NCBI GenBank assembly: GCA_029263415.1
Contig: JAJCXN010000046.1
Location: forward strand, 124,001 to 188,000
Reading direction: 5' to 3'
DNA from: Acidobacteriota bacterium
GTDB taxonomy: Bacteria > Acidobacteriota > Thermoanaerobaculia > Multivoradales > Multivoraceae
DNA length: 64,000 nt
Made by a program: the position numbers and the translations under genes. This document shows positions 7,440 through 49,149 of the stretch, in pieces. The notes below the pieces were generated by a model that saw only the letters and a list, made by a program, of their open reading frames with translations, was not told the origin of the DNA and made no database searches. The stretch's first letter is position 1; each line of letters starts with the position of its first letter.

Positions 7440-8285
7440 CTACCAGTCGACGATCCGTTGAATCACAGCCTCGATCTCTTCAACCTCCCAAGGCTGGTTT
7501 GAACGCCGCTTGGTGGTGCCATGGCTGGTCATCATCTTATAGATCATCAAGTGGTTGGCGTCGGCGCCGAAGGTCTGACCGGTAATCCGAGCACCCTTGT
7601 CTGACGCTAAGAACGCCACGATCGGAGCGATGTACTCAGGCCCATAGTTCTCGACGCCCTGCACACCAGGAAGATCTTCTGTCATACGCGTAAGAGCTGC
7701 TGGGGCGATTGCATTGACTGTGATCTGGTGCTTCGAGAACTCCCACGCTGCAATACGAGTCAAGGCATGGATGCCCATTTTGGCCGCACCGTAGTTGGCC
7801 TGTCCGAAATTGCCGAGCAGGCCGGAACTCGAAGAGGTGTTGATGATCCTGCCACCGCCCGCCTGCGCCACCATTTGACGGGCAGCAGCCTGCAAGCAGA
7901 AGAAGGTGCCATGCAGGTGAACCTCGATCACACTAAACCATTCCTCAGGCGTGGTCTTGAGAATCGTTCGATCACGCAGGATGCCTGCATTGTTGACCAA
8001 CACATCAATCCGACCGAAGGCATCCACTGCGGAGGAAACGATGTTCGTCGCCGCTTCGACGCTTCCCACCGCGTCCTTACTCGCTACTGCCTCTCCTCCA
8101 GCCGCAGTGATCTCTTCAACAACCTGATCAGCCGCGTCGCCCGATCCGGAGCCATCTCGAGATCCACCCGGATCGTTGACAACGACCTTGGCTCCAAGCT
8201 TGGAGAACAACAGAGCATGTTCTCGACCGATGCCGTTGCCCGCACCCGTGATGACCGCGACCTTGTCCTTCAATACAGACATCAT
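7440..8285 (-). CDS. short-chain dehydrogenase, MFE-2-like (3R)-hydroxyacyl-CoA dehydrogenase family
   Basis: A 281-residue Rossmann-fold oxidoreductase. The nucleotide loop TGAGNGIG is at 13-20, NNAG at 98-101, catalytic Ser near 151-154, and Tyr165/Lys169 in NYGAAK. The texts VVVNDPGGSRDGSGSG, LVNNAGILRDRT and GNFGQANYGAAKMGI match the dehydrogenase part of peroxisomal multifunctional enzyme type 2, which oxidises (3R)-hydroxyacyl-CoA. A role in beta-oxidation is inferred. I chose ATG 8285 because GGAAGGAAC lies just upstream; the longer frame adds 18 residues of no family character. It is the last of three co-directional genes with the symporter and a small membrane protein. Confidence 0.87.
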   Translation of the reverse strand: MMSVLKDKVAVITGAGNGIGREHALLFSKLGAKVVVNDPGGSRDGSGSGDAADQVVEEITAAGGEAVASKDAVGSVEAATNIVSSAVDAFGRIDVLVNNAGILRDRTILKTTPEEWFSVIEVHLHGTFFCLQAAARQMVAQAGGGRIINTSSSSGLLGNFGQANYGAAKMGIHALTRIAAWEFSKHQITVNAIAPAALTRMTEDLPGVQGVENYGPEYIAPIVAFLASDKGARITGQTFGADANHLMIYKMMTSHGTTKRRSNQPWEVEEIEAVIQRIVDW

Positions 8286-34981: not shown

Positions 34982-36349
34982 TCACCGTAGAAGCCGCTCT
35001 AAAAACCCAGTATCCACCACGCCCTCGGCGAAGCGCTCATCCCGCAAGATGGTGCGGTGTAACGCAGCCGTGGTCGCGATCCCCTCTAGCTCAAATTCTT
35101 CAAGGGCACGCGACATGCGTGCGATCGCCTCAGGCCGATCGCGTCCCCAGACAATGATCTTGCCCAACAAAGAGTCGTAGAAAGGGGGAAAGTCGTAGCC
35201 CTGGTAGACGTGGGAGTCGACGCGAACACCGGGCCCAGTCGGCCAACGCAGGCGCTCAATTCGACCGGGACTCGGTACAAACGAAGCCGGATCCTCAGCA
35301 TTGAGCCGACACTCGATCGAGTGGCCGCGGATCTCGACTCGAGCCGGAAGATCAGATCGACGACCCTGCGCACAACGCAACTGCGCGACGACCAGGTCAG
35401 TGGAGGTGACCAACTCGGTCACCGGGTGCTCTACTTGGATCCGGGTGTTCATCTCCATGAAGAAGAAGTCGTCTCGCTCGTCGACTAGAAACTCAACGGT
35501 GCCAGCGCCACGATAGCCAACCGAGGTGGCGAGGCGCACTGCCGCCGCCCCGATCTCGTCTAGCCGAGCCTGGTCAATCCCGGTTGGCGGCGCTTCCTCG
35601 AGCAATTTCTGATGTCGGCGCTGAATGGAGCACTCCCGAGTGCCGAGTTCGAGCACTACGGCGGCGGTCGACTTGGTCGCGACTTCTCCAAACACCTGGA
35701 CCTCGATATGTCGAGGCTTTGCCAAGAAACGCTCGACGTAGACTCGAGGGTCGCCAAACGCGACCGCTGCTTCGCGCGAGGCGAGGTCGAACAGTCGCTC
35801 AAGATCGCGGGCACGTTCGACGACCCGCATGCCCTTGCCACCACCACCCGACACAGCCTTGAGCAAGACCGGGAATCCGATCTCTTGCGCGCTGGCTAGT
35901 GCCTGGGCCGAGGTTGCAGGAGGTTCAATGGTTCCTGGCAAGACCGGGACCCCAGCCATATGCGCGGCCTTTCGCGCTTGAGCTTTGTCTCCGAGCAGCC
36001 GAATCGTCTCTGGCTCCGGACCGATCCAAACCAGGCCTGCTTCCGCAACCCGCTCAGCGAAATTCGCGTTCTCCGCTAAGAAACCGTACCCCGGATGAAG
36101 CGCGGTCGCGCCAGTAATCTCTGCTGCGGTGAGCACCGCTTCCTGGTTCAGGTAGCTCTTGGTCGCGCTTGCGGGACCGATACATACCGACTCGTCGGCC
36201 AAACCCACATGGCGAGCGCTGCGATCTGCGTCGCTGTAGATCGCAACCGATCTGACTCCGATGTCACGGCAGGCCTGGATGACTCTAACGGCGATCTCAC
36301 CCCGATTGGCAACGAGGACCTTGCGTAGCGACGGTGCCGTCGCTTCCAT
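34982..36349 (-). CDS. accC: acetyl-CoA carboxylase, biotin carboxylase subunit
   Basis: A 455-residue ATP-grasp enzyme that carboxylates the biotin of AccB, first step of fatty acid synthesis. KVLVANRGEIAVRVIQACRD opens the protein; the Gly-rich ATP loop is KAVSGGGGKGMRVV; catalytic text VLELGTRECSIQRRHQKLLEEAP, FMEMNTRIQVEHPVTE and FVPSPGRI are present. ATG 36349 has AGGA close upstream; the longer frame overlaps accB. Follows accB by 40 bases. Confidence 0.95.
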   Translation of the reverse strand: MEATAPSLRKVLVANRGEIAVRVIQACRDIGVRSVAIYSDADRSARHVGLADESVCIGPASATKSYLNQEAVLTAAEITGATALHPGYGFLAENANFAERVAEAGLVWIGPEPETIRLLGDKAQARKAAHMAGVPVLPGTIEPPATSAQALASAQEIGFPVLLKAVSGGGGKGMRVVERARDLERLFDLASREAAVAFGDPRVYVERFLAKPRHIEVQVFGEVATKSTAAVVLELGTRECSIQRRHQKLLEEAPPTGIDQARLDEIGAAAVRLATSVGYRGAGTVEFLVDERDDFFFMEMNTRIQVEHPVTELVTSTDLVVAQLRCAQGRRSDLPARVEIRGHSIECRLNAEDPASFVPSPGRIERLRWPTGPGVRVDSHVYQGYDFPPFYDSLLGKIIVWGRDRPEAIARMSRALEEFELEGIATTAALHRTILRDERFAEGVVDTGFLERLLR

Positions 36350-36389
36350 CGTTCCTGTAGTCGTCACAGGCCGCACTGGCACATGAGCC

Positions 36390-36869
36390 TCAGTCGGCCG
36401 AAGGGGGCGTTCTGACCCCGAACAAAGGGGCGCCGAACTCAACCGGCTCGCCGTTGCGAGCATAGACCTCAACCACCTCGCCCGCGACGTCGGCCTCGAT
36501 CTCGTTCATCAGCTTCATGGCCTCGACGATGCAAATGATCTGGCCAACTGCCATCTGTGCGCCAACGGAAGCGAACGGCTCCGCCTCTGGCGAGGGCGCT
36601 TCATAGAAGGTACCTACGATGGGGGAGGTGATCACATGGATGTCGGCGGCGGAACTAAGGGTGGCGGTCTCACCAGCCGTCGCGGCAGCAGCGATGGCCT
36701 GCGCGGGCGCCGCGGAGGGCGAGGCGAGCGGCTCCGCGCCTCCATAGACCATCGGTGCCGGGGCTCCATCGATACGGAGTCTGAACCCAGCACGCTCGAT
36801 TTCGAGGCGTCCCAGGCCCTTCTGGGCAACCTCATCCATCAGTTGCACAATCTGGTCGGTGGTCAACAC
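36390..36869 (-). CDS. accB: acetyl-CoA carboxylase biotin carboxyl carrier protein
   Basis: A 159-residue carrier. An N-terminal helical part (TTDQIVQLMDEVAQKGLGRLEIERAGFRLRI) leads through an Ala/Pro-rich linker to the biotinyl domain (about 80-155) with the biotinylation motif EAMKLMNE (Lys is the attachment site) and ITSPIVGTFYEAPSPEAEPF. The GTG start has AAAGGA about 10 bases upstream. It stands between the Roadblock gene and accC in a single co-directional run. Confidence 0.96.
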   Translation of the reverse strand: MLTTDQIVQLMDEVAQKGLGRLEIERAGFRLRIDGAPAPMVYGGAEPLASPSAAPAQAIAAAATAGETATLSSAADIHVITSPIVGTFYEAPSPEAEPFASVGAQMAVGQIICIVEAMKLMNEIEADVAGEVVEVYARNGEPVEFGAPLFGVRTPPSAD

Positions 36870-36891: not shown

Positions 36892-37377
36892 CTACGGGCG
36901 AACGGTAGCCGGCAGCGACCTGCCGAACCCGAGAGTATCCCCAGCTTCTCGCGAGCCTACAGCCGACAGGCCCCCGGTCTCGAGTTCCACTGGGCTGTCA
37001 TCGAGATCTTCTCCAAACAGCGCCGGCACCAAAGTCAACGGAGCGCGGCGCAGTTCAAAACGGGCGCGGGCAATGTCGGCACCGGAAGCGGAGCGACGCA
37101 AAAACAGCAGCAAGTAGACCTCCTCAGCGGCCTCGCCTAACAGAAGCACGTGATCTTCCGTCTCGACCAGCACGGAACGCAAGGGTCCTCCGCCGAACTC
37201 GCTATGGTTCTCTCTAGCCGCCTGAGCAAGTGCCACCAGCTCTGCTGAGAGCATCTCCATGTCGTGATTCTGCTCAACCAAAAACGAGTCAATTGGCAGT
37301 CCATCGCGACCGACCAAGGATGCGCCCAACAAACCCGGGCAACGACTACCGATCTGCTTCAAACACTCACGAAACAC
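36892..37377 (-). CDS. Roadblock/LC7 domain protein
   Basis: A 161-residue small protein: MFRECLKQIGSRCPGLLGASLVGRDGLPIDSF and the following SAELVALAQAAREN, then RSVLVETEDHVLLLGEAAEEVYLLLFL match the alpha/beta Roadblock/LC7 fold (about 1-105). A 50-residue tail follows. Bacterial Roadblock proteins usually bind small GTPases such as MglA. No GTPase is in the window. Its start overlaps the TPR gene by 11 bases, so the two are likely partners. Confidence 0.75.
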   Translation of the reverse strand: MFRECLKQIGSRCPGLLGASLVGRDGLPIDSFLVEQNHDMEMLSAELVALAQAARENHSEFGGGPLRSVLVETEDHVLLLGEAAEEVYLLLFLRRSASGADIARARFELRRAPLTLVPALFGEDLDDSPVELETGGLSAVGSREAGDTLGFGRSLPATVRP

Positions 37378-38728
37378 GCCGCTTCGCCTCCTTCAGCTTG
37401 TTCAGGTAGGCGCCCACCACCATCAGGCGGCGGTCTTCGAAAGAAGCACTTGATCGGACCTGATTGAGCGGAACGAGCTCAGCTAGATCGAGTGGAGTAA
37501 CCGGCCTCTCCTGCTGGGCCGGAAGTACATCAGAGCGCATCGCCACGGTTTCTGGTTGTCCAGCCACCTCAGAGGAGCCGCGAGCAGCGTCCTCCTGCTC
37601 AAGGTAGGACTGACCGAGCGTTGCAGTTGGGCCAGTGGAATCTGCCTCGGCAACCGGCGCAGGTAGGTCAAGGCTCGGCTCGCGATCGACCGGTGCACTG
37701 CCAAGATCAGCCACCTCACGGTCCGCCGAGACGTGAGTCCCCTTGCGAAACTCAGGCGGGCTCTCCAGCGGCTCAAGGGATGCCGGCTTGGCAGGCGATC
37801 CACCGGTGGGTGGCAATGCGGGCACTCGCGGAAAGCGTAACGCGCGCAATGGCAGTGCGCCGAGATCAAAGTTCTTGGCGGGCGCGGAGGGAAGTTCGAA
37901 GAGGTAACCGCCTGCCTGCAACGGATCGCTAGCCAGCTCGGGCAGCGAATCGAGCGAAAGCGACGGCGTTGGAACTCGTACCGGAGGATCGGGCGGCGTC
38001 GGGCCGACCGGAGGATTCGGCTTCTTGACGATCTCGATTACCACACCTGCAGGCGCGGATTCGTCACTCAACCCGGGTTGGCGACGCGGTTCGCTCGCCG
38101 GTTCAGTGACTTCGCTTTGCCAAAGACCGGAGAAGCTGCCGGTGGCTGGGCTCGGCTTAGAGACCTTGGCGAGGTCATTTGCAGGCTCCTCTGCCAGAGG
38201 GGCAGGAGGAGTCGTTGACCAAGGGCGCTCCTCCAGTTCTTGTTCCCCAGCCTCTGGAGCCGGGCTCGCAAGCTCGACCACAGCCTCAGGCAGAGGCTCT
38301 TGAACCTCCGGAGTGAGAAGGGTCTCAACCCGCTCGGAAAGCACCAACAAATCGACATCGCGCGCATTCAGTTGGCGATAGATCTCAAGGCAGCGGGAGG
38401 CCTCTTCGCCATTGCCCAGTTGCAAGTTTGCCTCGATCAAATGACGATACGCGACCATCTGCGTCGGGTCGCGCTTGACGACGTTCTCTAGGTGGGTCGC
38501 TGCGGAAGCGGGATCCTTCGCGTCCAACAAGCAGCGCCCAAGCGCTACCTCAGCCGCGATTGACGGACGCTCCTCAATGCCTTGACGCAGGACCGTCAAA
38601 GCCTGTGCAGTATCGCCCCGGCGTCGGTACTCTTCAGCGAGCTGCAAGAAGAGATGTGACTTCGGAGACTGCTCCCAGCGCCGCCGTAGTTCGGCTAGCC
38701 GAATCTCTGATGAATTCCACGCCGCCAT
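37367..38728 (-). CDS. TPR protein preceding the Roadblock gene
   Basis: A 453-residue protein. TPR units fill about 1-165 (AELRRRWEQSPKSHLFLQLAEEYRRRGDTAQALTVLRQGIEERP; VALGRCLLDAKDPASAATHLENVVKRDPTQ; AYRHLIEANLQLGNGEEASRCLEIYRQL). The rest is a low-complexity Pro/Glu/Ser-rich region with several short conserved-looking blocks such as NFDLGALPLRALRFPRVPALPP. No enzyme domain is seen. ATG 38728 fits; the longer frame is Arg-rich and unlikely. It heads a run with Roadblock, accB, accC and thiE. Confidence 0.72.
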   Translation of the reverse strand: MAAWNSSEIRLAELRRRWEQSPKSHLFLQLAEEYRRRGDTAQALTVLRQGIEERPSIAAEVALGRCLLDAKDPASAATHLENVVKRDPTQMVAYRHLIEANLQLGNGEEASRCLEIYRQLNARDVDLLVLSERVETLLTPEVQEPLPEAVVELASPAPEAGEQELEERPWSTTPPAPLAEEPANDLAKVSKPSPATGSFSGLWQSEVTEPASEPRRQPGLSDESAPAGVVIEIVKKPNPPVGPTPPDPPVRVPTPSLSLDSLPELASDPLQAGGYLFELPSAPAKNFDLGALPLRALRFPRVPALPPTGGSPAKPASLEPLESPPEFRKGTHVSADREVADLGSAPVDREPSLDLPAPVAEADSTGPTATLGQSYLEQEDAARGSSEVAGQPETVAMRSDVLPAQQERPVTPLDLAELVPLNQVRSSASFEDRRLMVVGAYLNKLKEAKRRVS

Positions 38729-38975: not shown

Positions 38976-39977
38976 CTATTGGCCGGAGACCGAGACGAAC
39001 TGGCTGATGGTGTCCGCGCCTTGGCTGTTCGTCGCGGTCAGAGTCACCACAAAAGTGCCAGCCGACGAAAAGGTGTGCGTGGGATTCTGCAAGGTGCTGA
39101 GATTGCCGTCACCGAAGTCCCAGGTCCACCGTGTCGGGTTGCCCTGCGTAGTGTCAGTGAACACCACGGTGAGATTGTTGATGCCGAAGCTGAACTCAGC
39201 GGAAGGCAATCGGCGGATGGTAATGGTCTCGCTGGTGGTGAGGAGCGAACCGCTTCCGCTGCCGGTCTCTGCCTGGACTTGGAAGGTGTCGCCTTGGATC
39301 AAGTCGACATCTCCCCCGGTGACGCTGAGTTCGTCAGTCGCTGCACCGTCGCTGTCAGTCAGCAAGAGCGAGCCTCCCGACGCCAACGATCCAATCTCAC
39401 TACGGAAGTTGACCTGTGCATCCTTGAGCGGCTGCCCCTGATCGTCGCGGACTAGGGCCAGGAGCTCAACACTGCCACCCAGTTCGGCGACGCTCGACGG
39501 TGTGGCCTGCAAAGAGATCGAGCCTGCTGGCAGCCCTATCTGAACGTCAATGGTCACCGACTCGGAGTTGCCTGCCATGGCAGTCACCGTTGCGATTCCA
39601 AATTGGCCGTCGCCGGTCAACAAGGTGATGACCTCACCGTTCCCGTCGATACCCACATTCGGAGCGATCGAGCCAATCGTGGAGTTGAAAAGGATGGCGG
39701 TTCCTGGGTTGAGCGGCGTGCCGTTCGGCTTACGAGCAACAACTCGAATCTGAGAGGAACCGGTGAGCGGAATCCGATTCGGTGAGGCGCTAATGGTCAG
39801 GATTGTGCCCTCGGGTGCGATCGGCGATCCGGAATCACAGGCTACGGTCGACAGAGCAAACGCCGCCATCAGTAACCAAGTCAGGACACCCGCGGGCGTA
39901 CTGAGACCAACTGCGACAGATTGGAGTGGGCGTGTTCTGGATAGCGACATAGCAGGACCCGGGGAAGTTTCGTTCAT
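38976..39977 (-). CDS. lipoprotein with Ig-like and PKD domains
   Basis: A 333-residue secreted protein. A hydrophobic signal (LTWLLMAAFALSTVAC) ends at a probable lipid-modified Cys. Two Ig-like (Big-type) repeats follow (ISASPNRIPLTGSSQIRVVARKPNGTPL and LQATPSSVAELGGSVELLALVRDDQGQPL). The C-terminal ~75 residues form a PKD domain with WDFGDGNLSTLQNPTHTF. Probably surface adhesion or pilus-related; function unknown. ATG 39950 is an alternative start. It is the last of three lipoproteins after pilQ. Confidence 0.75.
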   Translation of the reverse strand: MNETSPGPAMSLSRTRPLQSVAVGLSTPAGVLTWLLMAAFALSTVACDSGSPIAPEGTILTISASPNRIPLTGSSQIRVVARKPNGTPLNPGTAILFNSTIGSIAPNVGIDGNGEVITLLTGDGQFGIATVTAMAGNSESVTIDVQIGLPAGSISLQATPSSVAELGGSVELLALVRDDQGQPLKDAQVNFRSEIGSLASGGSLLLTDSDGAATDELSVTGGDVDLIQGDTFQVQAETGSGSGSLLTTSETITIRRLPSAEFSFGINNLTVVFTDTTQGNPTRWTWDFGDGNLSTLQNPTHTFSSAGTFVVTLTATNSQGADTISQFVSVSGQ

Positions 39978-40270
39978 GATGAGATGTCTACGGAAGCGGC
40001 AAACAATGCGTTTAGCTTGCAGCCCACGAAGTCCGCCCTCTCAACAGTAGAAGGAGCAGCAGCTCGGCCCACTAAAGAGGGGCAAGGTAGAAGCGGTCCA
40101 CCGTGGCGTCACTGATGCCCCTGGTGACGTATCGGTGCCGGCCAAGGTTATCCCACTCGGTCGAGGTGCGAGGTCAGGAGCTCCAGCAGCTTCTCGCGAA
40201 CGAAGAGACGCTCGCCAGGAAGGGAGGTGAGGCCCTCCTGGCAGCAGCGAACTCTCGGTTGAGCCCCAAA

Positions 40271-42493
40271 CTACGGGATATCAACTAGGCGCGTGACCGA
40301 GGTAGATCCATTCCCATTGGTCGCCGTCAGGCGCACCGTGTACATGCCCGGGACGCCATACGCGAACGAAGGGTTCTGCGCGTTGCTGGTGCTGTCTCCA
40401 ACGTCACCGAACTCCCACAGCCACTGCGTTGGACCACCCAACGATTGATCGGTGAAGGCGACAGTGGTGCCGTTGATGGTGAAGTCAAAAGCGGCCGATG
40501 GAGGAGCAGCAGGAACGATTTCAACCAACCTCGTGGCCGAGCTAGATCCCGTGTCGTTGGTCACCGTCAAGCGCACCGTGTACATGCCGGGGGCGCCGTA
40601 GGCAAACGAAGGGTTCTGCAAGGTACTGGTGTTGTCGCCAGGGTCACCGAACTCCCACAACCACTGCGTCGGAGCACCCAAGGATTGATCGTTGAAGGCG
40701 ACCGTGGTGCCGTTGACGGTGAAGTCAAATCCGGCTGTTGGAGCAGTACCGGGAACGATGTCTGCAACATCGTTCTGGCAGGTGGTGTCCGCCGGATTCA
40801 CCGTAAAAGCGACTGCGACGTCTTCCGTCGTACAGCCGGTCTCGACGTTGCGTAGGCTGAATGACAGGTTGTTGGAGGTTGCAACATTGCGAGTCCCAAC
40901 CTCGCCATCGCCGTTGTCGTCGCAACCGACCGTGTTGAAGGTCGCACCGGCGATGGTCGGCGTGTTCAGCACGACTTCGCTGTCAGAGACCGAAGACACG
41001 TTAGATAGCGCACCATTGATGGTGACCTGAACCGGATCCATGAAGTTGCCACCGGTAAGAGTGACCGCCGTGCCTCCAGCCTCGGCAATGGTGTTCGGAT
41101 TGACGGCCGTAATGAATGGTGGCGGCGGGCCGACGTAGCCGAAGTCGGGGCCAACAGCACCGTCTCCGGTCTCGATATTCGTGACTCCTACCGGACCACT
41201 TGCTTCGCTTCCATCAGCAGTAACTGGCTGACAGTCAACGACCCGAACGGCGGACGCTCTGAAAATGATCTCCGTCCCAGTGACCGAAATCGGCGACTGG
41301 CCAACCCCGCCCGCTGAGACTGCAACGGGTTCGTCAAACCCTTGGCCCGAAACGGTGACCAAGGTGCCACCGACATAGCTCACTGCGGTCGGTCCGAGTG
41401 ACGTGATGATCACGTTGGTGCCGTATGAAAATGCATTGCCCAAGAGAGTGGCGTCGCCGCTGTTGGTGTTACGCACCAACACCGCGACGTTGGCGTTCTG
41501 GTTGTCCTGTCCGAATCCGGTGGCGGACGGCGACGTAACCATGATCTGAGTCGAACTGACCGATAGGACCGTTGCCTCTATGCCGTTGAATGCGGCTGCG
41601 GAGCCTGAGCCAAACAGCACTTGGATCGGGGAGGAGAAACCCTCGCCGCGGATTGTGATGGTGGTGCCACCCTCATTGGGACCCGAGGACGGCGTCAGCG
41701 AGAAGATTTGCGGTTGCACTCCGCCACCATCGCGACGGTAGGTGAAGGCTCCCGGTAGGACATCCGTAGCCGACTCGGCGGTGTTGAGACCGACGGTCAC
41801 GGAAACGTCCGCGGACCGGGTCTCGCCGACCGGCAACGAGATCTGTGGCGTCCGCGCAACGATCAGGTCCGGCGCTACGCTTTCAACAACCGCGACTTGA
41901 CCCCCAATGAAGACGCGCACGGGCTCGAAGAAACCGCCGCCGTTGATGCGCATTCGAGAGCCACCATCTGGGCTACCGGTGAGGGGGGTGATCGAACCGA
42001 TAAAGAACGTGTCCGGTTCTATAGGTGCGGTGAAGGCCACGTTGGTCGTACCGATACTACTCTGGAGCTGGGCACGCACCTGTGCGGTTAACTCGACTGC
42101 CCCGGCGAAGAGGCTAACCTGTGCGCCGCCGTTGATCAGTGCCACCGCGCCGGTCTGTGGACCAGTACCGGCAGTGGTGAAGTTGCCGGCCGAGGTACTC
42201 AATTGCAGGGTCGTGTTGTTGGCAGGCGCAGCACCGTTGTCCGCGCGCCGCACCGTGATGTTAAGAGCCACCGGGGTGAGGCTTCCGGCAGGGACCGACG
42301 CAGGATTGGCGGTGATAGTGATGGTGAACGCTGTCGTCCCACCGCCGCCCGGCGGGGGCGCAGGGTTCGCCGTTGGTTCCGTGGGGGAGTCACTCGAGCA
42401 ACCCAGGGCCAACAGCGGGAGCGCAATGGCGCACAGCAGCAGGCTTCTGGACCGCTTTCCGGTCACCTTCGATGTTGTATTGAATAACCGCAT
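40271..42493 (-). CDS. lipoprotein with four IPT/TIG and two PKD domains
   Basis: A 740-residue surface lipoprotein. The signal LLLCAIALPLLALGC ends in a lipobox Cys, followed by a Pro/Gly linker and an Ig-like unit. Four IPT/TIG repeats (about 170-600) each have the GG(T/S)xxxxxGxxF pattern, such as TPSSGPNEGGTTITIRGEGF. Two near-identical PKD domains end the protein (WLWEFGDPGDNTSTLQNPSF and WLWEFGDVGDSTSNAQNPSF), with no membrane anchor after them. AGGAG lies 9 bases before ATG 42493. The next gene upstream ends 12 bases away. Confidence 0.82.
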   Translation of the reverse strand: MRLFNTTSKVTGKRSRSLLLCAIALPLLALGCSSDSPTEPTANPAPPPGGGGTTAFTITITANPASVPAGSLTPVALNITVRRADNGAAPANNTTLQLSTSAGNFTTAGTGPQTGAVALINGGAQVSLFAGAVELTAQVRAQLQSSIGTTNVAFTAPIEPDTFFIGSITPLTGSPDGGSRMRINGGGFFEPVRVFIGGQVAVVESVAPDLIVARTPQISLPVGETRSADVSVTVGLNTAESATDVLPGAFTYRRDGGGVQPQIFSLTPSSGPNEGGTTITIRGEGFSSPIQVLFGSGSAAAFNGIEATVLSVSSTQIMVTSPSATGFGQDNQNANVAVLVRNTNSGDATLLGNAFSYGTNVIITSLGPTAVSYVGGTLVTVSGQGFDEPVAVSAGGVGQSPISVTGTEIIFRASAVRVVDCQPVTADGSEASGPVGVTNIETGDGAVGPDFGYVGPPPPFITAVNPNTIAEAGGTAVTLTGGNFMDPVQVTINGALSNVSSVSDSEVVLNTPTIAGATFNTVGCDDNGDGEVGTRNVATSNNLSFSLRNVETGCTTEDVAVAFTVNPADTTCQNDVADIVPGTAPTAGFDFTVNGTTVAFNDQSLGAPTQWLWEFGDPGDNTSTLQNPSFAYGAPGMYTVRLTVTNDTGSSSATRLVEIVPAAPPSAAFDFTINGTTVAFTDQSLGGPTQWLWEFGDVGDSTSNAQNPSFAYGVPGMYTVRLTATNGNGSTSVTRLVDIP
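40274..40741 (-). repeat. tandem duplication of a PKD-coding unit (about 240 bp)
   Basis: The unit at 40502-40741 (80 codons) and that at 40274-40501 (76 codons) encode almost the same PKD domain; long stretches such as GTTVAF.DQSLG.PTQWLWEFGD and PGMYTVRLT are shared. The DNA is also highly similar, so the duplication looks recent. Confidence 0.8.
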
Positions 42494-42505
42494 GGCCGAC
42501 GTCTC

Positions 42506-43078
42506 CTAAGGCGTGAACTCGATGGTGAAACCGGCGGTCTGAGTATCCACTGCGTCGCCAGACAGGGTTCTGCCGAAGAACCTCAGCCGCAAATTGAGCA
42601 GGATTGTCGCACCGCCGGTTTCAGTGTCGAAGCCTCCGTTGATGAACTGCAAATCGGAAAGTGGAACCGTGGTGAGCTGCTCTAGGGACATCACTGGCAG
42701 ATTCTCCAAGGTGACTGACCCGTTGACTGGGATCGACGAAAAGATCTGTCGCACGAAAACTGGCGGCAGCCGAGTTCCGGTATCTGCCCGCTGGTAGGTC
42801 ACCTCATACGAGGAGATCTCCACGTTCTGCAAAGAGGACGTGGGCTGGCCTGGGGCTTTGGGAATGTTGTCGATAACGATCTCTCCAACCTGCACCAATC
42901 CGCCGCCGACGGCCCCATTGACCGATATCTGCACAGGCAAGCCGTCGAAGTCGCTGATCGACAGGAGTACGCCGCCACCGTCAACCTTGTCGGTGCGCGA
43001 CTCGCAGGCTCCGAGAGCCAGCATGAGAGCGACTAGGCCCAGGAGAAAGGACTTCGTCAGCTTTGTCTGTTTGGTCAT
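42506..43078 (-). CDS. small lipoprotein downstream of pilQ
   Basis: A 190-residue protein. The signal KSFLLGLVALMLALGAC ends in a lipobox Cys (LGAC). The mature part is beta-rich with no domain I recognise: VLLSISDFDGLPVQISVNG, ISSYEVTYQRADTGTRLPPVFVRQI, and LLNLRLRFFGRTLSGDAV. It starts 20 bases after the pilQ stop and precedes the IPT/PKD lipoprotein by 12, so it is part of the pilus operon by position. The pattern of a short beta-rich protein before a repeat lipoprotein suggests a common assembly. Confidence 0.68.
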   Translation of the reverse strand: MTKQTKLTKSFLLGLVALMLALGACESRTDKVDGGGVLLSISDFDGLPVQISVNGAVGGGLVQVGEIVIDNIPKAPGQPTSSLQNVEISSYEVTYQRADTGTRLPPVFVRQIFSSIPVNGSVTLENLPVMSLEQLTTVPLSDLQFINGGFDTETGGATILLNLRLRFFGRTLSGDAVDTQTAGFTIEFTP

Positions 43079-43098
43079 GAGGGTAAGACTCCGTGAAC

Positions 43099-46000
43099 CT
43101 ACTGTTGGATCACCCTAGGGGTGATGAAAATGAGAAGCTCTTGATTCTGGTTGGTCCGGTTGCGGTTCTTGAAGAGCTGGCCGAGTACTGGAATCCGAGC
43201 GAGCCCAGGCACCCGCGATTCGCTCTCATTGGCCGAGACTTGGTAGATACCGCCGATCACCGCCGTACCACCGTCGGCGACCCTCACGCGCGTTGAAGCA
43301 CGGCGGGTTGCGATCGGTGCTGTTGGAGCACCTTGAACCTGCAAGGCGAACTGCGGTTCGTCCTTCTCGATATTGACTGTCATCAGGATCGTGCCTTCAA
43401 AGGTGACTTGAGGCGTGACCTCGAGTCTCAAAGACGCCCTGATGAAGCTGACCGAGACGGTACCGAACGGGTTTGCGACGCCACCGCCAGTGGTGCCGCC
43501 ACCCCCGAGAACCGTTTGCACAGGCAATTGGAGTCCGGTCTCGATCTCTGCGCGGTTGTTGTTGAGCGTGGCGATCTTTGGTGAGGAAATGACGTTGATC
43601 AAACCCTCGTTTTCAGCGGCTTGCAGCGCCAAATCGATCTGCAGAGTGTTCAACACATTGCCCAGCGAAAGGTTGAAGAAGCCGTTGTCGCCGCCCGTGA
43701 GCAGTTGGACCCCACCGCCCGCTTCGACCCGATTAGGGAACTGGAGGCCAGTCGTATTGCCGCTGGCGGCATTAGCGGCGCCGCCAAAGCTCCAGTCGAT
43801 CCCCAACGTTCTTGAAAAGTTGCGCGTGGTCTCGACGATCCGTGCCTCGATCATCACCTGCTTCTCAGGGATATCGAGGTTCTCGATGACCTGAATGACG
43901 GTGTCAAGGTAACTCGGTAGTTCCTTGATGATGAGGGTATTGGTCCGTTGATCAACGTTGACAGAGCCCCGGCGGGACAAGATGCCGGTTTCTTGAGAGC
44001 TTTGCGAACCCCCACCAGCATTGCTTCCTCCTGAGCGCTGCCCCCGCGTGAGAATTTGGGAAACCTGGTTGGCCTGGGCATAGCTAAGACGCTTGATCAC
44101 GGTGGACAACGGCACCGAGAGCGCTCGGGCCTGCGCCAGCTCCTGATCCTCAATTGCCTCTTGACGAAACAGATCTTTCTGCGCAACCCGGAGAATGTTT
44201 CCTTCGAGCTGCTTGTCGAGACGGTTGATCTTTAAGATGGAGTCGAGAGCCTGATCCCAGGGTACCGCAATGAACTCGACCGTCACCGGCGCACTGATCC
44301 CGGGCTGAACCACAAGGTTGAGCTCCGCGTAGCGAGCAATCGTTCTCAAGACCTCGCTTAAGTCAGCATCTTTGACGGTCAACGTGATCGGCTCGCCGAC
44401 CCAGCGGGTGGCTGTGTCCAAGCGCTGGACTGCAAAGCCCTGCGGTGCCTCGTTGCGCCGGACATCCGGCGGCGTGATCTCCACCTGCTGTGCCTCGAAC
44501 AACGACACATCGGTCATTGGAGCGGCAGGCGCTTCGCGACGAGTCTCATCAGCGATCTCGAGCGGATCATCGGCAAATGGATCATCCGCAAAAGGATCTT
44601 CTTCCACTGCCGGTTCACCAAGGGCCGCAAGCTCGGTCGAAGCGGGCTCCTCAAAGGATTCGACCTCAGCCGGATCATCTTCAAAGGGATCCTCTTGCAC
44701 GGCCGGTTCATCAATGGCTGCAACCTCGGCCGGGGCGGGCTCCTCAAAGGTTTCGACATCGGCGGCCGGGTCATCGGCGAACGGGTCTTCAGCGAAGACG
44801 GGCTCGCTGAGAACATTCTCAGCTGGCTGCGCGAACTCAGGTTCTGTAACGCTAGCTGTCTCCAATTCAACGGCCGCATCGCGTTCAACGGCCGCATCGC
44901 GCGCTTCGACGAGCTCACTGAGTGCAGGAACGGTCTGCGGTTCGGCGCGCGCCACTCCGGCGGCTGGTTCCGCTTCAAGGGTTTCGAGCGGTGCAGGACC
45001 TGCCTCCTCGGTCTCGACTTCGGCGGTCTCGACTTCGGCGGGCCCGACTTCGGCGATCTCGGTTGTCTCTGCCCCTGGGGCATCGACCGGCTCGGTTGGG
45101 GTCTCGGTCTCGGTCAACATCGGTTCGGACTCACCGAAGCGAACCCAGAGGCCGTCGCTGGTGGCGTCCAAAGTCGGAACAGCATCGTCTGTCAGATCAA
45201 GAACCACGCGAGAGACCGGCGTGGGATAGGGGCGGAACTGCGCCAGCCGCACCTGGTCAATCGGGTCGCGACCCACCGTCACCCTACTCTCGGGAGCCGA
45301 ATTGACCACACCTTCGAGATCGATCACAAACCTTGAGGGGTTCTCCAACCGGAACGTGCTGTAGAGGAACTCGCCGTCGCCCTCGATACGCAGCGCCACC
45401 TTGCCGTCGAAGTCGACAACCTCAATGCCAAGCAATCGTGTGGCGCGAACGCCCTGGGGCACCGGGCCCGCGATCGGCTCTTCTGGAGTGCCATTCGCCC
45501 CCATCGGCCTGCCATAGGTGGCGACCACAGGCGCCGCTCTAGTCGCGACTGCACCGGCAACGGTTGCCGGGGTCGAGGCCACCGCGACCTGTGGCGCCGA
45601 AACCCGTGGCGCGGTCGTCGCCCGAACGGGCTCGTAGGCAGCAGCGGCGGTTGAACCGCTGCCGGAACTTAAACTGTTGGTGGCCATCGCCGCGCCAAAC
45701 GTGAGAGTGAGCAAACCGTCGTTGACGAACAGAGTGTGATCAGCCTCAGAGTTGGTACTAACCACCATGCGTGTCATGGGTCGCGCACCATTGGACTCCG
45801 GCTCCAGAACGACCGAGGAAACCAGGCCTCTTGGTGCTGGCGGAATCACCTCGCCAGCGAGCACCGTATTGGGCAGCTCGACCACCAGATCGCCTAGGTC
45901 ATTGCGGTACTGGGTCCAGACCAGAGGCCCGTTTCCGAGGACTGTCAGCTCGACGCCGCCGTCCGTTTCGCGCAGATCAACCGTCTGGATCTCGATCGTG

Positions 46001-46110
46001 GCCAGCGCATTGCTGGCTGCAGCAGACGCCACTGCCACCAACGAGACGGCCAGAGCGACCGCGCACAGCAGCCACAGGTTCGCGGTGGATCGTATATTCA
46101 CTTTGGTCAT
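43099..46110 (-). CDS. pilQ: type IV pilus secretin PilQ
   Basis: A 1003-residue outer-membrane secretin, the pore for the pilus. A signal peptide (about 12-35) precedes two AMIN domains (about 40-140 and 215-330, the latter with GIEVVDFDGKVALRIEGDGEFLYS) that bind peptidoglycan. An acidic, repeat-rich linker of about 230 residues follows (EDPFADDPAADVETFEEP and kin). Then come the secretin N domains (ITLTVKDADLSEVLRTIARYAELNLVVQPGI) and the secretin core (QVMIEARIVETTRNFSRTLGIDW; GLINVISSPKIATLNNNRAEIETG; VPGLARIPVLGQLFKNR). ATG 46110 has GAGG 6 bases upstream. Longer than usual because of the linker. Confidence 0.95.
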   Translation of the reverse strand: MTKVNIRSTANLWLLCAVALAVSLVAVASAAASNALATIEIQTVDLRETDGGVELTVLGNGPLVWTQYRNDLGDLVVELPNTVLAGEVIPPAPRGLVSSVVLEPESNGARPMTRMVVSTNSEADHTLFVNDGLLTLTFGAAMATNSLSSGSGSTAAAAYEPVRATTAPRVSAPQVAVASTPATVAGAVATRAAPVVATYGRPMGANGTPEEPIAGPVPQGVRATRLLGIEVVDFDGKVALRIEGDGEFLYSTFRLENPSRFVIDLEGVVNSAPESRVTVGRDPIDQVRLAQFRPYPTPVSRVVLDLTDDAVPTLDATSDGLWVRFGESEPMLTETETPTEPVDAPGAETTEIAEVGPAEVETAEVETEEAGPAPLETLEAEPAAGVARAEPQTVPALSELVEARDAAVERDAAVELETASVTEPEFAQPAENVLSEPVFAEDPFADDPAADVETFEEPAPAEVAAIDEPAVQEDPFEDDPAEVESFEEPASTELAALGEPAVEEDPFADDPFADDPLEIADETRREAPAAPMTDVSLFEAQQVEITPPDVRRNEAPQGFAVQRLDTATRWVGEPITLTVKDADLSEVLRTIARYAELNLVVQPGISAPVTVEFIAVPWDQALDSILKINRLDKQLEGNILRVAQKDLFRQEAIEDQELAQARALSVPLSTVIKRLSYAQANQVSQILTRGQRSGGSNAGGGSQSSQETGILSRRGSVNVDQRTNTLIIKELPSYLDTVIQVIENLDIPEKQVMIEARIVETTRNFSRTLGIDWSFGGAANAASGNTTGLQFPNRVEAGGGVQLLTGGDNGFFNLSLGNVLNTLQIDLALQAAENEGLINVISSPKIATLNNNRAEIETGLQLPVQTVLGGGGTTGGGVANPFGTVSVSFIRASLRLEVTPQVTFEGTILMTVNIEKDEPQFALQVQGAPTAPIATRRASTRVRVADGGTAVIGGIYQVSANESESRVPGLARIPVLGQLFKNRNRTNQNQELLIFITPRVIQQ
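44500..45120 (-). repeat. acidic repeat-coding segment of pilQ
   Basis: Tandem, imperfect units encode EDPF(A/E)DDP..E(S/T)FEEPA..E(L/V)AA..EPAV blocks and, further upstream, 15-base units giving AEVET and 18-base units giving AAVERD. All lie between the AMIN and secretin parts. The repeats are Glu/Asp/Pro/Ala rich. Confidence 0.75.
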
Positions 46111-46232: not shown

Positions 46233-46859
46233 TCACAGGTTGAGCCTCATGACGACTTCTTTGAACGGTTTGGGCGAAGTGGGATCGCGAACTACCTGCC
46301 GGAACACCACTTTGCCGCCTTCTTCCCTATCCCAAGTGACACTCGTCACCTCGCCGTCAAAGATGCGGGTGCCCGGACGCAGCAAGAAACTGATCGGATC
46401 TTCGGCCGACTGAACTTGGGCGACAGGACCGTCAGGCCACATCCAAACCCCGGTCACCGTCAAGTTGTCGACCAGCAATCCAGGGACCCCTTCGGGTCGC
46501 GGTCCGAGACGGCGTTCGACGGTATCTGGCACACGCAGCAAGGTGCGAAACGGGTCGCGCCGGCCACCCGGGTCATACACAAAGCCAGTATCGACACTGT
46601 CTTCACTCTCTTCGAGAAGCCCTTCAATGAGATCAAGATCCTCACGATTGGTTCCGCGAAACTCGCTGTTCTGAGTGTCGTCGAGGGCGGGTTCTGAGTC
46701 CGGAGAGTCTTCGAGTAGGGCATCGATCTGGGTCGACCGCGCATCGTCACTTTCGCGATCTGCCTGTTCTTGCGACCAAACCGGCGCACTTGAAAGACCA
46801 ACCAGCAGGAACACCACACCGAGTGCTCCCAATCCGGAGATGCAGGGAGAACGCATCAT
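46233..46859 (-). CDS. pilP: type IV pilus lipoprotein-like PilP
   Basis: A 208-residue periplasmic protein. The signal (about 8-29, LGALGVVFLLVGLSSAPVWS) has no lipobox Cys, unlike classical PilP. An acidic linker leads to the beta domain (about 92-208): FVYDPGGRRDPFRTLLR and GLLVDNLTVTGVWMWPDG PVAQVQ-type text, the usual PilP motif GRRDPF. It links PilNO to PilQ. Its ATG overlaps the pilO stop (ATGA), and pilQ starts 123 bases on. Confidence 0.9.
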   Translation of the reverse strand: MMRSPCISGLGALGVVFLLVGLSSAPVWSQEQADRESDDARSTQIDALLEDSPDSEPALDDTQNSEFRGTNREDLDLIEGLLEESEDSVDTGFVYDPGGRRDPFRTLLRVPDTVERRLGPRPEGVPGLLVDNLTVTGVWMWPDGPVAQVQSAEDPISFLLRPGTRIFDGEVTSVTWDREEGGKVVFRQVVRDPTSPKPFKEVVMRLNL

Positions 46860-47446
46860 TGGCTCGCTCCCGCCGGAATTGCTTCCTCAGTTTCGTTATA
46901 GATGAATGTCTTGCCGACGAAGTTGGCACGGATGCTGCGCGTGGGCGACGGACTGTTAATTGCATCAATGCGCAAAGTATCGATATTGAATATGCGCTCG
47001 TAGCGGCTCAGACGATCAAAGAAACGGGCCAGGTTGTGGTACGTACCCTCAAGGTTGATCGCGATCGGCCACTCGTTGAAGTACTCCTTCTCCACTTCCG
47101 CGCGCGGTTGGAAACGCACTATGGTGAAGTCCTCCTGTTGGGCAAGTCGGCGGACCTGGTCCATGATCTCGTGCACGTTGCGCCGCTCGGGCAGAATGTC
47201 GAGCAGTTTGTCGAGCTCGCCGGTGAGCCGTTCAACGCGAGCTTGGAACTGTTCTTCTTGCGCCTCGGCCGCTTCGCCTTGACGAATTTGGCTATCTAAT
47301 TCGGTAATGCGATTGTTTTGGTTGCTGATTTGACGCTCAAGCGGCGTGAACCAGAACCGGTTGGCGACGTAGTACCCAAGCGCGATGAGCACAAGCGCGA
47401 CCACGACACCGTGCCACCAGGGTTTTCCTTCTAGTCCTGTTTCCAT
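46856..47446 (-). CDS. pilO: type IV pilus assembly protein PilO
   Basis: A 196-residue inner-membrane protein. One helix (about 11-32), a coiled-coil (about 33-70: ERQISNQNNRITELDSQIRQGEAAEAQEEQFQARVERL), then a ferredoxin-like periplasmic domain (LPERRNVHEIMDQVRRLAQQEDF, WPIAINLEGTYHNLARFFDRLSRYERIFNI). It pairs with PilN in the alignment complex. Its stop overlaps the pilP start by 4 bases; pilN ends 40 bases upstream. Confidence 0.93.
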   Translation of the reverse strand: METGLEGKPWWHGVVVALVLIALGYYVANRFWFTPLERQISNQNNRITELDSQIRQGEAAEAQEEQFQARVERLTGELDKLLDILPERRNVHEIMDQVRRLAQQEDFTIVRFQPRAEVEKEYFNEWPIAINLEGTYHNLARFFDRLSRYERIFNIDTLRIDAINSPSPTRSIRANFVGKTFIYNETEEAIPAGASQ

Positions 47447-47486: not shown

Positions 47487-48089
47487 CTAAGGAGCCTCAG
47501 CCTCCTCTGGTTGGGCGGTCCGCTCGCGCGCCAGCGTCAGCCGATAGGTGTACACATCGCCACGCTGGTTGGTGTCGCGCAACTCAGGCTCCGCAAAGAA
47601 GGATGAATCGTCTAGAGCACGCACAAAGGTTGAGACTGCACCCATGTTGAACGAGCGACCGTCGATCTGAATGCGTTCGCCACTTTGATCAAGCCGGTCG
47701 ACCCACAGCAGCTCGGGCAGGGCACGAGAGACCACATCCATCATCTCGACCGGACCGCTCTGATTGTCCTTGAGCTGAGTGATGACTGCGATTTTGCGCT
47801 CAAGCTCTTCTTCTTGCCGTGTGTACGCTTCGACCCGCGCGATGATCTCGGCTAGCTCGTCTACCCGCCGTTGCTTCTCCGCGATGATGCCTCGATTGGT
47901 CTGCACAAGACCATTCTGCCGCCACCAAAAAGCACCGCCAAGGATCAACGCCACCACTGCCGGCGCCAACAGCCAGTAGAGGGCCGCGTTCTCACCGGCG
48001 AACAACTCTTCCAGAAACGGGCCGCGCGCCCGCGTTGGCTTTGCGACAATCGGTTTTCGCGCTTCACCGACTAGATTGATCTTGATCAT
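47487..48089 (-). CDS. pilN: type IV pilus assembly protein PilN
   Basis: A 200-residue bitopic protein. The cytosolic start MIKINLVGEARKP is the conserved PilN segment (INLL type) that binds PilM. One helix (about 39-60), a coiled coil (IIAEKQRRVDELAEIIARVEAYTRQEEELERKIAVI) and a ferredoxin-like domain follow, ending Glu/Ala rich. ATG 48089 puts MIKINL at the start with GGAG 9 bases upstream; a start at 48104 would overlap pilM by 11 bases. Confidence 0.92.
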   Translation of the reverse strand: MIKINLVGEARKPIVAKPTRARGPFLEELFAGENAALYWLLAPAVVALILGGAFWWRQNGLVQTNRGIIAEKQRRVDELAEIIARVEAYTRQEEELERKIAVITQLKDNQSGPVEMMDVVSRALPELLWVDRLDQSGERIQIDGRSFNMGAVSTFVRALDDSSFFAEPELRDTNQRGDVYTYRLTLARERTAQPEEAEAP

Positions 48090-48093
48090 CGGA

Positions 48094-49149
48094 TCAGTCT
48101 CCAACCCTGCGAATCGCGAGACCGACTGAGACCGCCATCATTGGCGCCACAGAACGGATCCAATCGCTATTGAAGTCATTGTCTCGATACGACACGCGCC
48201 GGAACGGGTTCATCAGCTCGGCTGGCACCGAGAAACGATCAAGCAGAATCTCGAGAAGGTTTGACGTTAGCGAGCAACCGCCAGACAACACCAGCTCGCT
48301 AACCGCGCCTTCTGAGGACGTCGCTCCGAAGAAGTCGAATGTCTTTTGAACTTCAGCGGCCATCTCACCACTGACCGCCTCCAACACTGCGCGCGCGTCG
48401 TTAGGCGAGTAGCGATCAACCGTCTCGCCTCGCTTGAGCGCTTCCGCTTGCTCGAAAGAGAGATTGAATTCGCGCTGCAAGGCCTCGCTGAACTGGTTGC
48501 CACCAAAGGAGATGTCACGCCAGAACACGCTGGTGCCGCGCGCCAAAATGTTGATGTTGGTAACACTCGAACCCATGTTGACGAGAGCGACCACCTTCAT
48601 CGGATCAACGTCGTAGTTGAGTTCGTATGCGTTCTGTACTGCAAACGCATCGACATCGACCAGGGCCGGAACCCGACCTGCTTGGCTGATCACAGAGACG
48701 TAGTCATTGACCTTGTCGCGCTTGACTGCAACCAGAAGCACTTCCATCTGATCGGAGGCTTCCGGATCAGAAAGCAAGACGTAGTCTAAGCGGACATCAT
48801 TGATGTCGAACGGGATGTACTGCTCTGCTTCCCATTGAATCGACTCAGCCAATTCGTCTGCCGCCATCGCCGCGAGCTCGATCTTCTTAATGATCACGGA
48901 ATGGCCCGACAGCGAGGTTGCGAAGTTGCTGTTCTTTACCGAAGTCTCATCGCACAGCTTCTGGATCGCATCGACGACAAGCGAGGAGTCCATGATCGAG
49001 CCGTCGACGATCGCTTCCGGCGACAGCGGCTCGATGCCCATCCGCTGCAGCTGGAACTCACCCTTGCGCTCGGTGAGCTCTACGAGCTTGACTGCGAAGC
49101 TCCCGATGTCGAGACCGACGACACCTTTTGATCGAGCGAAAAGACCCAC
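48094..49149 (-). CDS. pilM: type IV pilus assembly ATPase-fold protein PilM
   Basis: A 351-residue cytosolic actin/FtsA-like protein that anchors PilN. The sequence begins GLFARSKGVVGLDIGSFAVKLVEL, with the phosphate-1 loop GLDIGSFAVK, then ELAESIQWEAEQYIPFDINDVRLDY, phosphate-2 text VALVNMGSSVTNINIL and the adenosine motif LVLSGGCSLTSNLLEIL. First gene of the pilMNOPQ operon. A candidate promoter and a palindrome lie upstream. Confidence 0.95.
   Translation of the reverse strand: MGLFARSKGVVGLDIGSFAVKLVELTERKGEFQLQRMGIEPLSPEAIVDGSIMDSSLVVDAIQKLCDETSVKNSNFATSLSGHSVIIKKIELAAMAADELAESIQWEAEQYIPFDINDVRLDYVLLSDPEASDQMEVLLVAVKRDKVNDYVSVISQAGRVPALVDVDAFAVQNAYELNYDVDPMKVVALVNMGSSVTNINILARGTSVFWRDISFGGNQFSEALQREFNLSFEQAEALKRGETVDRYSPNDARAVLEAVSGEMAAEVQKTFDFFGATSSEGAVSELVLSGGCSLTSNLLEILLDRFSVPAELMNPFRRVSYRDNDFNSDWIRSVAPMMAVSVGLAIRRVGD

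Follow-up and report, generated by a model that had tools for sequence, protein, structure and literature searches.

The question raised by the locus described here is whether the lipoprotein genes that follow the secretin gene pilQ in an acidobacterial genome belong to the machine of the type IVa pilus (T4aP) or only stand beside it. The window, meaning the whole stretch of 64,000 nucleotides that was analyzed, comprises positions 124,001 to 188,000 of contig JAJCXN010000046.1 in an Acidobacteriota genome of 6.9 Mb that is 99% complete. Acidobacteriota are abundant in soil, and to our knowledge their type IV pili have hardly been studied. An initial annotation of the window placed three lipoproteins directly behind pilQ and proposed that they form an adhesive or secretin-assisting layer associated with the pilus. 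The comparisons reported here make it probable that these lipoproteins are hitherto unstudied components of that machine. The reading favored is that they constitute a lineage-specific outer-membrane module of this machine in many Acidobacteriota, to which a probability of roughly 0.5 is assigned; that they form a functional unit with the pilus is considered highly probable. Genome comparison suggests that the lipoproteins belong functionally to PilQ, because they are encoded directly behind pilQ throughout the class (the smallest of them also in other families) and are missing in the one related genus without a full PilQ.

All three lipoprotein open reading frames (ORFs) are present where they had been annotated, on the minus strand. 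Together with pilQ and two further genes, they are as follows:

43099..46110, minus strand: pilQ, secretin of 1003 amino acids (aa) with 2 AMIN domains (TIGR02515; Pfam)
42506..43078, minus strand: lipo190 (P0003), predicted lipoprotein of 190 aa, Ig-like beta sandwich, lipobox Cys25 (ORF; AlphaFold model)
40271..42493, minus strand: TIG/PKD lipoprotein (P0002), 740 aa, N-terminal Ig-like region, 4 TIG and 2 PKD domains, lipobox Cys32 (Pfam)
38976..39977, minus strand: Ig/PKD lipoprotein (P0001), 333 aa, two invasin-type Ig domains and one PKD domain, lipobox Cys47 (Pfam; AlphaFold)
37367..38728, minus strand: TPR protein, no evident signal peptide, probably cytoplasmic (Pfam TPR above cut-off)
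36892..37377, minus strand: Roadblock/LC7 protein (PF03259, 36.9 bits, cut-off 23)

At the start of each of the three lipoprotein ORFs, a signal-like sequence leads up to a cysteine in a lipobox-like context (C25, C32 and C47), both judged from the sequence, in agreement with the lipoprotein signals annotated earlier.

The distribution of lipo190 was examined in a class-level sample of 98 genomes (the source genome and genomes of its family, order and class) and in a phylum sample of 297 Acidobacteriota genomes. In the class-level sample, lipo190 was found in 73 of the 98 genomes. Of the 25 genomes without it, 21 belong to a single genus, designated g2, and the other four are G045, G064, G066 and G071. 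The PilQ match of G045 breaks off near the start of a contig, that of G064 reaches base 7505 of a 7507-base contig, and G066 and G071 are 86% and 69% complete and have no full PilQ. Among the 98 genomes, none was found with a complete PilQ 3' end and no lipo190. Gene neighborhoods were read at 69 class loci, all chosen for a lipo190 match, plus the source locus. The recurrent order is pilQ, lipo190, a long lipoprotein, optionally a second long lipoprotein, TPR, Roadblock and accBC, and part of this order is also seen in distant families. Counted by stop-to-stop ORFs, a long lipoprotein of TIG or Ig type was recognized at 62 of the 69 loci, the TPR gene at 56 and the Roadblock gene at 36, in a material with some genes overlooked by ORF picking and with many truncated contigs. 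The first gene table shows a long lipoprotein at five of the seven loci that lack one in this count (L093, L118, L126, L130 and L132). The initial annotation did not extend to the TPR and Roadblock genes, which are members of the same module.

Across the phylum, lipo190 was detected in 110 of the 297 genomes with the class profile, and in 126 after 19 distant members had been added to the profile. At 20 distant loci obtained from class-profile matches, lipo190 follows pilQ in all 19 with pilQ on the stretch, and the remaining one (L148) begins within the operon; the long lipoprotein was recognized by class profiles at 11 of these 20 loci, and the others show lipoproteins of different make-up. 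Comparison of the 126 lipo190 genomes with the 150 PilQ places listed, outside which 15 of the lipo190 genomes fall, showed lipo190 directly downstream of pilQ on the same strand in 110 of the 111 genomes with both among the matches listed. The distance between the two profile matches ranges from 3 to 254 bp, with a median of 29. The exception, G325, is a contig break: PilQ extends to base 4675 on a contig of 4692 bases, and lipo190 begins at base 178 on a second contig. The order of pilQ and lipo190 is far beyond chance, and the module is broader than a local oddity. Its most widely conserved member is the small lipoprotein, not the large ones. Additionally, a scan of 84,980 species with two peptide patterns of the order-level alignment returned 46 relatives, all but two of which are labeled Acidobacteria, Acidobacteriota, Thermoanaerobaculia or relatives, or Holophagae/Holophagales. 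The two other labels are one "uncultured bacterium" and one "Deltaproteobacteria" (L180), probably a mislabeled acidobacterium from the order of the source genome.

The second line of evidence comes from the genus g2 (G001 and G004-G023; 21 genomes in the family of the source genome), in which no full PilQ was found. The best matches of this genus to the source PilQ have E values of 2e-16 to 4e-11; where places are listed (G001, G006, G008 and G012), they cover PilQ only from about residue 836 onward, and the 13 g2 genomes in the phylum sample match TIGR02515 at E 1e-24 to 2e-21. In the same 21 genomes there is no lipo190, no TIG domain at E <= 1e-5 (present in 69 of the 77 other class-level genomes) and no TPR protein of the module (present in all 39 genomes tested outside g2). 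Three other sampled genera of the same family keep both PilQ and the accessory module, and the state of g2 is a lineage-specific loss of type IV pili. This joint absence therefore suggests that the lipoproteins, the TPR protein and the pilus are one functional unit.

The same evidence bears on the view that the lipoproteins are passengers, that is, envelope lipoproteins unrelated to pili and trapped in a vertically inherited superoperon extending from relA and pilMNOPQ to accBC, thiE and aroK. The genes accB and accC, and at some loci thiE and aroK, are indeed conserved neighbors with no role in the pilus, and the trio is missing in many families that carry PilQ. Against this view, the genus that has no full PilQ also lacks lipo190, the TIG domains and the TPR protein. 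In the genome G043, pilQ and the TPR gene are on separate contigs and the TPR gene is nonetheless kept, and lipo190 follows pilQ itself in the 111 genomes listed with both genes, except at one contig break. This explanation is considered very unlikely.

The small lipoprotein represents a family of its own. No Pfam or NCBIfam match was obtained for lipo190, and in searches with 45 members, any family matched at most one of them (best E 0.018 in Pfam and 0.00091 in NCBIfam). Eight residues, C25, R97, G101, D151, T154, G169, T171 and G174, are invariant across 43 class-level sequences, and the lipobox cysteine column is C in all 45 aligned sequences. The beta-rich character ascribed to the protein earlier is borne out by the AlphaFold model built from 45 sequences, in which a beta sandwich follows a flexible tether and the signal helix (predicted local distance difference test score, pLDDT, 90.9; predicted template modelling score 0.77). 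The fold was also considered as a clue to function and gave none. The VIA structure comparison returned a TRAP translocon subunit (Z 9.1), ApaG (Z 8.6) and a SpyCEP domain (Z 8.4), all at a root mean square deviation (rmsd) of 3.0-3.6 over 107-116 aligned residues; these mixed sandwiches barely exceed what the tool terms "common". Three Foldseek matches at E <= 0.001 are all potassium channels, with a query template modelling score of 0.29-0.30 and an rmsd above 9. No solved relative was found by sequence (best E 0.99), and no secretin-associated lipoprotein stands among the structure matches listed, which excludes nothing.

One alternative for this protein accepts the pilus association and assigns lipo190 a role in the assembled PilQ, as a plug, gate or peptidoglycan anchor instead of an assembly factor, with the long lipoproteins as a collar for the sliding pilus. 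The neighborhood and the co-loss are equally expected under such a role, and a small outer-membrane lipoprotein can anchor a secretin, as is proposed for CpaD in PMC13170226. Against it, the Pfam search of lipo190 gave no domain that binds peptidoglycan, and sequence cannot tell an anchor from an assembly aid; the proposal is rather unlikely.

The two long lipoproteins differ from lipo190 in being built of repeated structural units. In the 740-aa protein, 4 TIG and 2 PKD domains are above the Pfam cut-off, in agreement with the IPT/PKD make-up annotated earlier, and in the source genome TIG matches are confined to this gene. For the 333-aa protein, the annotated PKD domain is above the cut-off, but Big_1 and Invasin_D3 remain below it in P0001 itself; tandem Ig domains of this invasin/intimin type are present in the Ig-type lipoproteins, with Big_1 in 34 of 40 aligned members and Invasin_D3 in 29 of 40 (both at E <= 0.001), and PKD in 21 of 40. 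Of 35 aligned members of the TIG type, Pfam recognizes TIG in 34 and PKD in 14. The aligned sets are P0002 plus 34 sequences from a list of 51 of the TIG type, and P0001 plus 39 from a list of 55 of the Ig type; a lipobox was recognized in 50 of the 51 and 50 of the 55 sequences of the source lists, and the lipobox cysteine column is C in all 35 TIG and all 40 Ig sequences. The AlphaFold model of the 333-aa protein (pLDDT 89.5) is mainly beta behind the signal helix, and its VIA comparison with PKD domains gave Z 14.7 at an rmsd of 1.4 over 80 aligned residues.

The length of TIG-type proteins ranges from 228 to 1,579 aa, a range that omits L090 (159 residues, no lipobox recognized) and L191 (211 residues, extending to the locus boundary) and draws in part on a list that was itself picked by a motif pattern. 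The longer forms can be seen as arrays of Ig/TIG units that have grown while the lipid tether stayed constant. The 1,579-aa form was observed in one lineage (L116, 4907-9643; L196, 10673-15409), and orthologues of about 230-270 aa exist. At another locus (L106, genome G049), an ORF of about 1,330 residues stands between the TIG and Ig genes. The segment after the lipidated cysteine follows the pattern C-S-x-D-S-P-T-x-P in TIG-type proteins (CSSDSPTEP in P0002); of 35 sequences, 33 have Pro at +6, 31 have Pro at +9 and 29 have Asp or Glu at +4. The Ig-type proteins share the prolines (+6 in 27 and +9 in 32 of 40; CDSGSPIAPEG in P0001), and no such pattern is seen in the 45 aligned lipo190 sequences. 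A DNA pattern for codons of the type [AG]-C-x-x-[DE]-[ST]-P-x-x-P occurs 3 times in the whole genome and its reversed control 0 times; two of the occurrences fall within short ORFs (30 and 36 residues), which leaves the TIG gene as the one long ORF that carries a signal sequence. Therefore, the TIG tether is not a general lipoprotein signal of the source genome; it may serve in docking or sorting.

These domain types bring in the adhesive layer, in which the long rods of Ig, TIG and PKD domains would be surface adhesins produced together with the pilus, pilus retraction would bring about adhesive contact, and lipo190 would be a periplasmic or surface partner instead of a secretin factor. Domains of this kind are known from adhesins and stalks, and the size range, from about 230 to 1,579 aa, is as expected for surface proteins with varied partners. 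The VIA matches of the 333-aa model point in the same direction, with invasin (1cwv; Z 13.6, rmsd 8.3, 253 aligned), intimin D0-D1 (Z 13.3, rmsd 16.6), InvD (Z 12.4, rmsd 10.9), InvE (Z 12.1, rmsd 6.3) and FdeC (Z 11.0, rmsd 11.0). However, multi-domain superpositions with an rmsd above 6 are weak, and Ig, TIG and PKD are structural units that also occur in secreted enzymes and polymers, the matches including a collagenase, an endoglucanase and receptor chains. Moreover, the most widely conserved member is the single-domain lipo190, which stands nearest to pilQ. An adhesive layer of this form is rather unlikely.

The locus has further genes at both ends. The order on the minus strand is pilM-pilN-pilO-pilP-pilQ, lipo190, TIG/PKD, Ig/PKD, TPR, Roadblock, accB and accC, and the genes at its two ends are the following:

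48094..49149, minus strand: pilM (ORF; named by position; homologues precede pilQ in relatives)
47487..48104, minus strand: pilN (ORF; name from position; order conserved)
46856..47446, minus strand: pilO (ORF; name from position; order conserved)
46233..46859, minus strand: pilP (ORF; name from position; order conserved)
34982..36869, minus strand: accB and accC, housekeeping genes marking the end of the module (ORFs; same position in many relatives)

We take the names pilM, pilN, pilO and pilP from position and sequence character, not from a profile, and accB and accC are presumed on the same grounds. PilQ scores 367.1 bits against a cut-off of 284.35 for TIGR02515 in the NCBIfam search, and its Secretin, AMIN and Secretin_N domains are all above the Pfam cut-off; by these profile matches and by the gene order here and in relatives, pilMNOPQ is identified as a type IVa pilus secretin operon. 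The gaps are 20 bp between pilQ and lipo190, 12 bp between lipo190 and TIG, 293 bp between TIG and Ig, and 247 bp between Ig and TPR, and the TPR and Roadblock genes share an overlap of 11 bp. The gap sizes indicate that the lipo190 and TIG genes are tightly coupled to pilQ and the Ig gene less so. Inside the operon, promoters and terminators showed no excess over shuffled sequence (1 versus a mean of 2.4, and 10 versus 10.9). The TIG-Ig gap (39978-40270) is unusually long and contains a small hairpin. A decayed mobile element was considered for it, since fragments seem to resemble a broken transposase; the gap has no second copy in the genome and is not shared with the corresponding gaps of the two nearest relatives, both of the same family. 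For comparison, aroK follows hofMNOPQ in E. coli K-12, with no annotated gene between them.

On this basis, a mechanism can be proposed for the outer-membrane module. All three lipoproteins would be exported, lipidated and carried to the outer membrane. There, lipo190 would bind PilQ and aid its insertion, multimerization or anchoring, a job done elsewhere by unrelated lipoproteins (Tgl/PilF/PilW in T4aP, CpaD in the Tad system of Caulobacter); the chances that lipo190 acts directly on PilQ are put at even. The TIG/PKD and Ig/PKD proteins would be rods tethered beside the pore by the motif after the cysteine, and a position outside the cell near the pore is given slightly less than even odds. 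Such rods would be a stalk, collar or adhesive fringe and not a catalytic part, because the number of Ig units is free to vary. The most specific version, in which lipo190 is an all-beta outer-membrane lipoprotein replacing the TPR pilotin in much of the phylum and the tethered Ig rods form an extracellular collar round the emerging pilus, is unlikely as a whole. In the cytoplasm, the TPR and Roadblock proteins may act on where and when the machine works, comparable to MglA/MglB and SgmX; MglB is a Roadblock protein. The distribution of the two genes suggests that they are a pair controlling type IV pili from the cytoplasm across the phylum. The TPR protein was also considered as the missing pilotin and was rejected, with no signal peptide or lipobox seen in it and its gene overlapping the Roadblock gene.

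Several findings weigh against the outer-membrane module as stated. PilQ is above the TIGR02515 cut-off in 230 of the 297 phylum genomes, and at least 104 of these 230 have no detectable lipo190; similarly, 39 of the 150 genomes with a listed PilQ place have no lipo190 match. At 20 PilQ loci without lipo190 that were read, Roadblock is the first recognizable gene after pilQ in seven (L220-L226), TPR is the first profile match in three (L211, L212 and L215) and stands behind a small lipoprotein in two (L213 and L216), no module gene is visible in seven (L208-L210 of family f37, L214, L218, L219 and L227), and L217 ends with its contig. A lipoprotein of 162-176 aa still follows pilQ at L211, L213 and L216 despite the lack of a profile match. 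In hhalign comparisons with the lipo190 profile, the protein of L211 (176 aa, before the TPR gene) reached 82% and is probably a distant member; those of L213 (0.7%) and L216 (34%) were unconvincing. Therefore, the module exists in many but not all Acidobacteriota, and PilQ can evidently manage without it. The pilus association proposed in the initial annotation is supported for the class, where the lipoproteins are companions of pilQ, and reaches into other families through lipo190, often with an Ig-type lipoprotein, but it does not extend to the many PilQ genomes without them. Relatives with PilQ and no trio, named there as evidence against the association, gave a mixed outcome: they exist elsewhere in the phylum, and in the class-level sample no genome with a complete PilQ 3' end lacked lipo190. 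As for a trio away from pilQ, only a few second lipo190 matches were found. Two matches occur in four of the 126 lipo190 genomes; those of G294 are neighboring pieces, and G082 (E 1.8e-4), G102 (E 3e-23) and G296 (E 5e-33, at the start of a contig) each have an extra match away from pilQ, those of G102 and G296 clearly so.

The two main lines of evidence also have alternative explanations. Neighborhood alone proves little, because accB and accC share it without being pilus genes, and the co-loss may represent one contiguous deletion, since it concerns one genus only. The predicted lipo190 fold is a generic Ig-like sandwich that points to no function. The comparison with known pilotins is divided as well. 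T4aP pilotins such as Tgl are lipoproteins with a superhelix of six TPRs, for which PMC10653833 proposes transient binding of the unfolded PilQ beta-lip. Like Tgl/PilF/PilW (TIGR02521), lipo190 is predicted to be a small outer-membrane lipoprotein tied to PilQ, in its case through gene order and co-loss, whereas its modeled fold is an all-beta sandwich instead of a TPR superhelix and its gene stands directly behind pilQ. In a set of 41 genomes, of which 20 do not belong to the PilQ-less genus, no protein matched TIGR02521 above the cut-off; this control is weak, as the profile is above the cut-off in none of 14 control genomes either, and all 41 show TPR matches below the cut-off.

The routing of secretins to the outer membrane, and their holding there, is known for a few Proteobacteria and Myxococcus. 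In the open-access literature searched by keyword, from which subscription papers are largely absent, no study of an Acidobacteriota pilus operon or of such a module was found among the papers listed, in line with the earlier statement that such a layer is not described for standard pilMNOPQ systems. The new element is one protein family without a curated match at the core of an otherwise known kind of machine. The idea of an adhesive or secretin-assisting layer is plausible, and lipo190 is the strongest lead. The conserved lipoprotein behind pilQ offers a concrete handle on whether Acidobacteriota build the pilus pore differently, and the module raises the question of what role lipoproteins with Ig rods play at that pore.

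Among known systems, CpaD of Caulobacter resembles lipo190 in gene position. According to PMC13170226, CpaD is an outer-membrane lipoprotein of 225 aa that is required for Tad biogenesis and whose gene immediately follows cpaC, the gene of the secretin. It is proposed to be an anchor of the secretin and is described as having an OmpA-like fold able to bind peptidoglycan. The lipo190 gene stands likewise directly behind a secretin gene (110 of the 111 genomes listed with both). However, lipo190 has no OmpA Pfam match, its listed VIA matches are Ig-like and other sandwiches (absence from that list excludes nothing), and CpaD belongs to another pilus class. No TPR match was found in lipo190 with Pfam or NCBIfam. 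Thermus PilW is likewise restricted to its lineage and encoded next to pilQ, and according to PMC13039148 PilQ depends on it for assembly or stability. Its gene differs in position, taking the pilP place between pilO and pilQ, whereas here a gene in the pilP position is present and the new genes follow pilQ; the word lipoprotein does not appear in the main text of PMC13039148. The 333-aa protein and its orthologues share tandem Ig-like domains (Big_1 and Invasin_D3) with invasin and intimin, and differ from them as a predicted lipid-anchored rod of 2-3 domains, without a beta-barrel and encoded in a pilus operon. Finally, the Roadblock and TPR genes stand together in the pilus operon, a likeness to MglA/MglB and SgmX of Myxococcus that consists of these two domains; SgmX has 14 TPRs according to PMC7668184, whereas the TPR protein of the source genome has TPRs only in its first ~140 residues.

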